In this document: positions 31,897-36,918 of the stretch, one piece after another
How positions within the stretch are numbered: position 1 is the first letter of the stretch
Layout: every line of letters starts with the position of its first letter
The notes under the pieces: generated by a model
The model's input: only the letters and a program-made list of their open reading frames with translations
Database searches by the model: none
What the model was told of the DNA's origin: nothing
Program-made: the position numbers and the translations under genes
NCBI GenBank assembly: GCA_021827205.1
Contig: JAKAWV010000005.1
Coordinates: forward strand, 1-64,000
Length of the DNA: 64,000 nt
Source of the DNA: Pseudomonadota bacterium
GTDB taxonomy: Bacteria > Pseudomonadota > Gammaproteobacteria > Xanthomonadales > Rhodanobacteraceae
Reading direction: 5' to 3'

Positions 31897-32028
31897 CCGG
31901 TGCGATCCGGGGTTGGACCAGGGCATTCTAGCGATTGCAGGCAGCGCGGCGCGTGACTTCACGTCGCGCCGGACACCGTGAGCGCCCGCCCCGGAAAATC
32001 GCCGGACCGCATTTCGCCGGCATCCTGC

Positions 32029-32034
32029 TAGAAT
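32029..32034 (+). promoter_or_regulatory. Candidate -10 of the car operon
   Basis: TAGAAT lies 84 bases upstream of the carA ATG in a T/C-rich leader. It is the best -10-like hexamer in the gap; no good -35 element is seen 16-18 bases before it. No ArgR or pyrimidine-responsive site was recognised. Confidence 0.35.
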
Positions 32035-32117
32035 CCTCGCTCGCCTGTTGTCCCTTCCCCTCGGTCCCGCCCCGCGCCGGATCGCGGGTCTTGTCGCATC
32101 CGGAAGGCGTATCCCCC

Positions 32118-33287
32118 ATGCATGTTCCCGCCCTGCTCGCCCTCGAAGACGGCACCATTTTCGCGGGCACGAGCGTTGGCGCCCCCGGCCACACCGTGGG
32201 CGAGGTGGTGTTCAACACCGCCATGACCGGCTATCAGGAAATCCTCGGCGATCCTTCCTACGCCCGGCAACTGGTCACGCTCACGTATCCGCACATCGGC
32301 AATACCGGTTGCAACGCGGGCGATGACGAGTCCACGCACGTGCACGCCGCCGGCTTGATCGTGCGCGACGTGCCGCGCCTGCCCAGCAACTGGCGCAGTC
32401 GGGAAAGCCTGCCGGATTACCTCAAGCGCCACGGTGTGGTCGCCATCGCCGGGCTGGATACGCGCAAGCTCACGCGCTTGCTGCGCGCTCAGGGCGCGCA
32501 GGCGGGCTGCATCCTCGCCGGTCCCGATGCGGCGCACGCCGATGCCACCGCGATCGCCGTGGCCGCCGCGCGCGGGTTTCCTGGTCTGGCCGGCATGGAT
32601 CTGGCGCGCGTGGTCAGTACCTCTGCGGCGTATCGCTGGGAGGATGGTAGTCTCGATCTCGATCACGGCGGCTGCGCGCGCCCCGCGCCGCGCTTGCACG
32701 TGGTCGCCTACGACTTCGGTGTCAAGCGCAACATCCTGCGCCTGTTGGTCGACCGCGGCTGCGCGCTCACCGTGGTGCCGGCGCAGACGTCCGCCAGCGA
32801 GGTGCTGGCGCGCAAGCCCGACGGCGTGTTTCTGTCCAACGGCCCCGGCGATCCGGAACCCTGCGATTACGCCATCGCCGCCATCCGCGAATTCCTGGCG
32901 CGCAAGCTGCCGTTGTTTGGCATCTGCCTCGGCCACCAATTGCTCGGCCTCGCCGTCGGCGGCAAGACGCTGAAAATGAAATTCGGCCATCACGGCGCCA
33001 ACCACCCGGTGCAGGAACTGGCCAGCGGCCGCGTGCTGATCACCAGCCAGAATCACGGTTTCGCAGTGGATGAGACCAGCCTGCCGGCCACCGCGCGCGT
33101 CACCCATCGCTCTCTGTTCGACGGTTCCAATCAGGGCATCGCGCTGAGCGACGCGCCGGCGTTTTCGTTCCAGGGCCATCCCGAGGCCTCGCCGGGACCG
33201 CACGATGTTTCGGGCTTGTTCGATCGGTTCATCGACATGATGCGGGACTCGGGACTCGGGACTCGGGACTCGGGAGGAGCGCGATGA
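32118..33287 (+). CDS. carA: Carbamoyl-phosphate synthase small (glutaminase) subunit
   Basis: 389 residues. The ATG at 32118 begins the conserved [17 protein letters not shown]. The glutaminase nucleophile is in [13 protein letters not shown], and the triad His and Glu are in [11 protein letters not shown]. It supplies ammonia to CarB for carbamoyl phosphate in pyrimidine and arginine synthesis. After the usual FDRFIDMM end the protein has an extra tail, [14 protein letters not shown], encoded by a tandem GGGACTC array. Its stop overlaps the start of the next gene as ATGA, a four-helix-bundle gene inserted before carB. Confidence 0.96.
33244..33275 (+). repeat. Left heptamer array, (GGGACTC)x4 plus GGGA
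   Basis: Four perfect tandem copies of the 7-base unit GGGACTC begin inside the last codons of carA and end 8 bases before the ATG of the four-helix-bundle gene. The GGGAGGAG at its end supplies that gene's ribosome binding site. The reverse-complement array lies at the far side of the same gene. Confidence 0.9.
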
Positions 33288-33688
33288 CCGCATCGCATTT
33301 CCGCGAGCTCGAGGTCTGGCAGTTGGCGATGCAGCTGGCCTGCGCGGTCTATGAGCCGACCGCCGCTTTCCCGCGCGAAGAACGCTACGGCCTCACGGCG
33401 CAGTTGCGGCGCGCGGCGGTTTCCATACCCTCCGATATTGCGGAGGGCAATGCCCGCAGTTCGCTGAAAGACTACGCGCGCTTCGTCTCGATGGCGCTGG
33501 GCTCCACCGCTGAAGTGCAGACTCAGTTGTTCTTGTCGCGGGATCTGGGTTTGGCTGCCGAAGCCGATGGTGCTGCCGCATTGGAGCTTTGCGATCGTGT
33601 CGGGCAGATGCTTGCACGCCTGCATCAAGCCCTGTGCCGCAAGCTCGAATCCGAGTCCCGAGTCGCGAGTCCCGAGTCCCGGAGCTGA
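33284..33688 (+). CDS. Four-helix-bundle protein (23S rRNA intervening-sequence/S23 family)
   Basis: 134 residues of the IVP/S23 family: [20 protein letters not shown], then [20 protein letters not shown] and [19 protein letters not shown], the family's conserved blocks. The fold is an Avd-like four-helix bundle whose function in this setting is unknown. The start overlaps the carA stop (ATGA). The last residues ([11 protein letters not shown]) come from a GAGTCCC array. It sits inside the car operon between the two synthase subunits without breaking the operon. The inverted heptamer arrays at both edges mark it as an inserted unit. Confidence 0.85.
33646..33680 (+). repeat. Right heptamer array, GAGTCCC repeats
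   Basis: Four units (GAGTCCC three times, GAGTCGC once), preceded by a related CGAATCC, form the 3' end of the four-helix-bundle gene. They are the reverse complement of the left array. The array stops 10 bases before the carB ATG, just ahead of carB's GGAG. Confidence 0.88.
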
Positions 33689-33690
33689 CC

Positions 33691-36914
<3,224 letters not shown>

Positions 36915-36918
<4 letters not shown>

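Follow-up and report, generated by a model that had tools for sequence, protein, structure and literature searches.

What is a gene of the S23/IVP family doing between carA and carB, and why is it framed by tandem heptamer repeats that run in opposite orientations on its two sides? An earlier note on the 64-kb window (the whole stretch of DNA that was analysed) had called attention to this arrangement and had read it as a mobile or recombining unit that is neither a standard IS nor a DGR. The anatomy of the locus and the association of such genes with such repeats are strongly supported by the results described below, and it is the mechanism behind them that we infer. On balance, the evidence tips somewhat toward a minimal homing-like element, akin to the intervening sequence (IVS) of 23S rRNA genes but sited in a protein operon, that consists of a heptamer array, an S23/IVP gene and an inverted array. 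The components of the locus are the following:

32118..33287, + strand: carA, carbamoyl-phosphate synthase small subunit (TIGR01368, E 1.3e-141; sequence)
33243..33275, + strand: left arm, tandem GGGACTC array of 4.7 copies (TRF score 66, 100% matches)
33272..33279, + strand: Shine-Dalgarno-like GGGAGGAG (from the sequence; putative role)
33284..33688, + strand: IVP/S23 gene, 134 aa (profile matches to PF05635/TIGR02436)
33651..33681, - strand: right arm, reverse-complement GAGTCCC array (TRF score 55, 91% matches)
33686..33688, + strand: IVP stop codon (from junction sequences of empty versus occupied sites)
33691..36918, + strand: carB, large subunit (NF003671, TIGR01369)

The last codons and the stop of carA lie within the element. 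The left array, with its period of 7, encodes the tail of CarA in frame and forms GGGAGGAG from its end, and the right array (4.4 copies, with a mismatch in one unit) encodes the tail of the IVP protein. The earlier note had recognized the inverted arrays on both sides of the gene, the coding character of both and the ATGA in which the IVP start codon (ATG at 33284) overlaps the TGA of carA, and all of these hold; the span that it assigned, 33244-33680, stops short of the last codons and the stop of the ORF. The ATG of carB follows 2 nt after the IVP stop. Of the 7 places in the window that match a two-unit heptamer pattern with at most 2 mismatches, 6 fall inside the two arrays; shuffles yield a mean of 1.26 matches, and none of 100 reaches 7. 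When folded by computation, the transcript closes through pairing of the two arrays, with 29 pairs within them in the predicted stem, and none of 100 shuffles is equally stable (z -4.9). Positions 31900-34500 matched no Rfam family, introns included, and on this ground the presence of a known structured RNA or of an intron was ruled out.

The IVP protein is the entire coding content of the unit, in which there is no transposase and no nuclease. Its placement in the S23/IVP family, which had been proposed from the sequence, is confirmed by matches over the cut-offs to PF05635 (E 2.9e-35; 121.1 bits versus 33.8) and TIGR02436 (108.6 bits versus 24). With the AF2 model of the protein (mean pLDDT 93.6), Foldseek retrieved 2GSC of Xanthomonas campestris (E 4e-8), 2RLD (E 2e-3) and the DGR protein Avd (4DWL; E 0.02, TM 0.71). 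Avd is a pentamer. The charge composition of IVP (15 K+R versus 17 D+E) is of no help to the idea that it binds nucleic acid. The likeness to Avd is one of fold, and the difference is that the genome from which the window comes (G000) has no match to the reverse transcriptase domain PF00078 (RVT_1), a domain that 3 of 14 control genomes do contain. A DGR was ruled out on this ground, and the lack of a transposase in the unit likewise agrees with the opinion that it is not a standard IS.

Comparisons within the genus bear on how the unit reached the operon. The start of carB was found in 11 of 13 genomes, and with G147 left out (it is cut at a contig end) ten carA-carB junctions were compared. 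Five of these are empty (G108, G071, G056, G129 and G043), the carA stop and the carB start overlapping or lying one base apart; two, G000 and G025, hold the IVP element; and three, G139, G097 and G084, hold a GxxExxY gene framed by inverted ~9-mers (the carA side of G084 is beyond the contig stretch). Both empty and occupied sites are thus present among relatives, as would be looked for in a homing element. In a tree of carAB, G000 is joined with support 1.0 by G071 and G108, both of which are empty all the same, and G056, G129 and G043, outside that group, are empty as well. The IVP unit at the end of carA is an insertion, and it has left the operon readable because the left array supplies a CarA tail and stop, the genes are joined by the ATGA overlap and the IVP stop comes just before carB. 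From the way in which the end of carA reads, GCGCGCTGACATG at an empty site versus GGAGCTGACCATG at an occupied one, the IVP stop is probably the former stop of carA, CarA having been given a new one by the element. Of the mobile or recombining unit that the earlier note envisaged, insertion polymorphism is directly visible across these junctions, and active movement of the element is what the polymorphism might reflect.

The two occupied sites also resemble each other more closely than their surroundings do. Between G000 and G025 the DNA identity is 95.9% for IVP versus 84.9% for carA and 87.1% for carB, and all six 100-nt windows over 33191-33790 are 95-98% identical, compared with 67-95% for the other 24 (this is one species pair, and one window outside the tract also reaches 95%). 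The raised identity would fit a transfer of the element with short flanks, either via homing or by plain recombination.

The framing of IVP genes by heptamers is not peculiar to this locus. In a survey of the family Rhodanobacteraceae, IVP matches occurred in 52 of 147 genomes, one or two per genome, and 61 of the 64 match rows were used (two G060 fragments and one G085 row below the cut-off were omitted). Period-7 flanks (score at least 7) were detected at 48 of the 61 loci versus 1 of 61 control windows, and inverted arms (score at least 13) at 41 versus 1, with 13 loci falling below the period-7 threshold. Among the other periods from 3 to 13, period 11 alone was in some excess (9/61 versus 1/61); the control windows show periods 3, 6 and 9, like coding DNA. 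The best 80 loci of a scan of named sequences, of which 72 were used after 8 with short flanks had been dropped, gave a similar picture: 42 of the 72 have period-7 flanks (score at least 9) versus 12 of 360 control positions, 30 are below the threshold, and period 8 was seen at 8 versus none of the 360 controls. Loci that pass are from Xanthomonas, Dokdonella, Acidobacteria, Clostridiaceae, Planctomycetes, Kiritimatiellaeota, Cloacimonadota, Bacteroidetes and others, and their units vary widely (GGGACCG, AATCGTG, AGTGGTT, AGAGGCC, AGTTCTC and more). Two archaeal loci, both of Methanophagales, lend no support, L125 having been dropped for a short flank and L136 being without arrays. Both checks that the earlier note had set for its insertion reading, the junctions of relatives and the coincidence of arrays with IVP genes at other places, thus turned out to favour it. 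Many bacterial IVP genes, then, have the same architecture, each with its own heptamer, and the earlier note was probably wrong to label the gene a cargo, the IVP gene being the constant part of the element.

The heptamers were also compared in the light of the proteins. In an analysis of the 113 of 141 loci that have a unit, the similarity between units climbs with IVP protein identity, from a mean of 3.4-3.8 of 7 letters below 50% identity to 5.3-6.5 above 60%, and the rank correlation of 0.24 was reached by none of 300 shuffles. The sites are few and are common to several genera: among 30 family loci, with gene names taken from representatives, the IVP gene lies between carA and carB at 5, before accC at 11, at prfB/lysS at 4, after one unnamed gene at 5, at an ABC ATPase/permease at 2, before a gspF-like gene at 1 and elsewhere at 2. 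A search for three 23S motifs, with no positive control, found them within 4 kb of none of the best 80 named loci.

The heptamer of an IVP gene also tends to recur in the same DNA. Among the 47 of the best 80 named loci that have a clear unit, 15 have further arrays of that unit at a distance of up to about 10 kb (at L154, a borderline instance, none lies farther away than 700 bp, and L166 has a nearly palindromic unit), compared with 4 of 2152 combinations for foreign units; none of 5000 permutations reaches the own-unit value. At the loci of Dokdonella immobilis (L140) and of an Acidobacterium (L187), some of the own-unit arrays are opposed pairs about 90-140 bp apart. A search of G000, which has one IVP match, recovered 67 + 56 = 123 overlapping pattern matches, and the reversed control gave 0 + 0. 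Across the family, GGGACTC 18-mers are present in 24 of 147 genomes. The six genomes with a GGGAC(T/C)C-armed IVP contain 45-93 matches each, and at least 20 matches occur in 12 of the other 141 (Fisher 1.5e-6, the class having been assigned by eye and the threshold of 20 picked after the counts had been seen). Eight genomes with at least 20 matches have no IVP match (G024, G042, G061, G097, G118, G119, G138 and G139). GGAGATC 18-mers are confined to 1 of the 147 genomes, G131, which bears a GGAGATC-armed IVP; G086, the IVP of which has a similar, shorter arm of the same unit, has no exact GGAGATC 18-mer. Array lengths differ widely. Shuffles, the reversed-pattern control and the control windows together rule out an origin of these patterns by chance.

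The arrays of G000 were studied in 27 stretches, the first-listed pattern places, and eleven inverted pairs without a gene, 86-211 bp long, were encountered there. Their cores, when compared with one another and with the IVP gene, share no sequence at E 0.01, and BLAST of the whole pairs returned repeat noise. A MITE of a transposon was ruled out, since the copies have no related internal sequence. One of the gene-less pairs, at a junction that reads by eye as atpA-atpG, is well preserved in G000 and degraded in G071 and G108, and G025 and G056 lack it. Another frames the region before a proC-like gene; in G071 and G108 its left array is gone and its right one is worn, and relatives without the left array have intergenic DNA with which the core can be aligned, unlike what a MITE would show. 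The right array at this place (L207:1090-1147) is in frame and would encode the N-terminus of the protein. Neither G071 nor G108 has an IVP match, and their worn arrays fit decay in the absence of the IVP gene, a reading that is countered by the eight IVP-free genomes listed above. A second site (L207:4536-4621) is missing from both G071 and G108, but the corresponding region of G056 aligns too poorly for an insertion to be called there; three single-array sites on C29 and C31 present a mixture of gain, loss and decay. Genomes of the genus share arrays at orthologous positions, and several single arrays in G000 stand directly after apparent stop codons, as judged by eye. At four places (L036, L049, L056 and L057) a REP-like stretch (of the CATCCC...CCGGGGATCC type) comes after single GGGACTC arrays behind apparent stops, and at L037 a GAGTCCC array has a further long tandem 7-mer, of the GAGCCGG type, beside it, immediately ahead of position 994.

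Several known systems invite comparison. The element resembles the 23S rRNA IVS in that inverted repeats at its two ends enclose an S23/IVP ORF and pair into a long stem, here a predicted one. For the 23S IVS of Coxiella, one report describes a terminal stem of 28 bp, RNase III cutting in vitro, and two or three tandem heptamers upstream of the S23 ORF (PMC4990558), and according to another, the insertions in which IVP ORFs were detected in CPR bacteria lie in 16S as well as in 23S rRNA genes (PMC11270868). Unlike the 23S IVS, the present element lies in a protein operon and not in a 23S rRNA gene, both of its arms are protein-coding heptamer arrays, and its heptamer is dispersed in the genome. 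Dispersed heptamers were described by Rehm 2015 (PMC4692102), who reports GGGNATC repeats in Xanthomonas and Nostoc, read as G-quadruplex repeats, with 70 and 75 convergent pairs near gene ends in two Xanthomonas genomes; 83% of the repeats keep their gene context between two Xanthomonas species, and they are said to be generally unlinked to mobile elements and not tied to one functional gene class. The heptamer arrays and the convergent pairs are points of likeness to our case; the difference is that S23 is never mentioned there, the text containing 0 occurrences of S23, four helix or intervening. Short-repeat families, a survey of prokaryote satellites concludes, may spread by a mechanism of transposition (PMC6749651). 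Our searches of open-licence papers turned up none that connects dispersed heptamers with genes of the IVP family. Homing introns and endonuclease genes occupy conserved essential sites, are patchily present and have raised identity around the insert. The IVP unit is like them in the first two respects and, between the one pair of species compared, may be so in the third; it differs in having no nuclease and no Rfam intron.

Under the homing-like reading, toward which we incline, the RNA stem of the paired arrays would be processed (by RNase III, as in the 23S IVS) or tolerated, and the operon would survive. The IVP protein, with its Avd fold, might bind the arrays, perhaps with one unit per subunit, and might promote the spread or the uniformity of the element itself and, acting in trans, of the arrays that have no gene, while homologous recombination at the same junction could carry the element from strain to strain. 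The gene and its repeats would thereby look like one selfish element. The reading is weakened by the persistence of arrays in the eight IVP-free genomes, by gene-less cores that have nothing in common and by repeats that, according to Rehm 2015, are conserved in place and generally apart from mobile elements. The small number of IVP sites common to genera would also fit an old insertion followed by descent and loss, and a history of this kind, if recombination were added, could look like homing.

The arrays might instead serve the host. IVP would then be an RNA-binding regulator, with the arrays at gene ends as its sites on mRNA and the arms of its own gene as a means of autoregulation, and the arrays would be selected and not selfish. 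The recurrence of own-heptamer arrays in the same DNA would suit such a regulon, as would the single arrays right behind apparent stop codons, the array positions shared by orthologous places within the genus and also between two Xanthomonas species, and the resemblance of the IVP fold to Avd and to DGR ribonucleoprotein subunits. We nevertheless judge it rather unlikely, in view of the patchiness of IVP in the family, the different heptamers of relatives and the arrival of the element in the operon by insertion, to which may be added that the Xanthomonas and Nostoc repeats, according to PMC4692102, are not bound to one functional gene class. Alternatively, the arrays could be neutral, arising and being kept by slippage and recombination, and flanking IVP merely since operons tolerate hairpin-forming ends. 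Eight IVP-free genomes that retain arrays and the wide variation of array lengths are in keeping with this, but at IVP genes the prevailing period is 7 (along with 14, a multiple of it), whereas none of 18 GxxExxY loci has period 7, and the unit beside the gene matches arrays elsewhere far oftener than foreign units do; neutrality is in our estimation quite improbable.

In RAYT/REPIN systems, one copy of a Y1 gene, flanked by repeats, is accompanied by many short inverted elements with matching ends. The present case is similar in combining a single gene with many such elements, and dissimilar in that IVP is not a Y1 transposase, the ends are tandem heptamers and the cores are unrelated. We attach very little probability to the thought that the arrays are moved by some other enzyme, such as a Y1 transposase of the RAYT/IS200 type, and that IVP is a passenger: G000 does have three Y1_Tnp matches, and its gene-less inverted pairs resemble REPINs in outline, but no GGGACTC doublet was found in the three Y1 loci (about 3.3 kb each), for which reason RAYT-driven arrays of the REPIN type were ruled out. 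L285 (C32:28153-28479 of G000) is a longer Y1-type gene, possibly a RAYT, with no GGGACTC doublets in the flanks examined.

Returning to the homing-like element, a wider proposal can be made tentatively, as one that we consider possible and would not yet call probable: IVP/S23 across bacteria may be the trans-acting gene of widespread minimal mobile elements without a known recombinase, in which an Avd-like oligomer would read the heptamer array, the heptamer repeats of bacteria would be the footprint, and GxxExxY genes with 9-10-nt arrays would make up a second class. Such a proposal joins two loose ends, namely the role of the S23/IVP ('four helix bundle') protein and what it is that spreads bacterial heptamer repeats. 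If confirmed, it would establish a class of elements, each of them very small, at the junctions of essential operons, overlooked for want of a transposase.

To this picture the genus adds an array-framed GxxExxY element at the very same operon junction, where the G097 copy matches TIGR04256 with 147 bits. GxxExxY genes are present in 17 of 147 family genomes, and their 18 loci, as read by eye, lie between carA and carB (5), before pntB (6; the identity of pntB was checked once, with a 100-aa piece that scored 52 bits, under the whole-protein cut-off), before a carboxylase-like gene (6) and elsewhere (1). Their inverted arms, with units of 9-10 nt, score 9-37 versus 7-11 in 18 controls, and their periodicity is weak (period 9 at 5/18 versus 2/18, period 10 at 3/18 versus 0/18). 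GxxExxY genes with inverted arms of this kind are perhaps a parallel class of elements. In G097 (L096), the GxxExxY element has two copies of its left array, separated by a short stretch.
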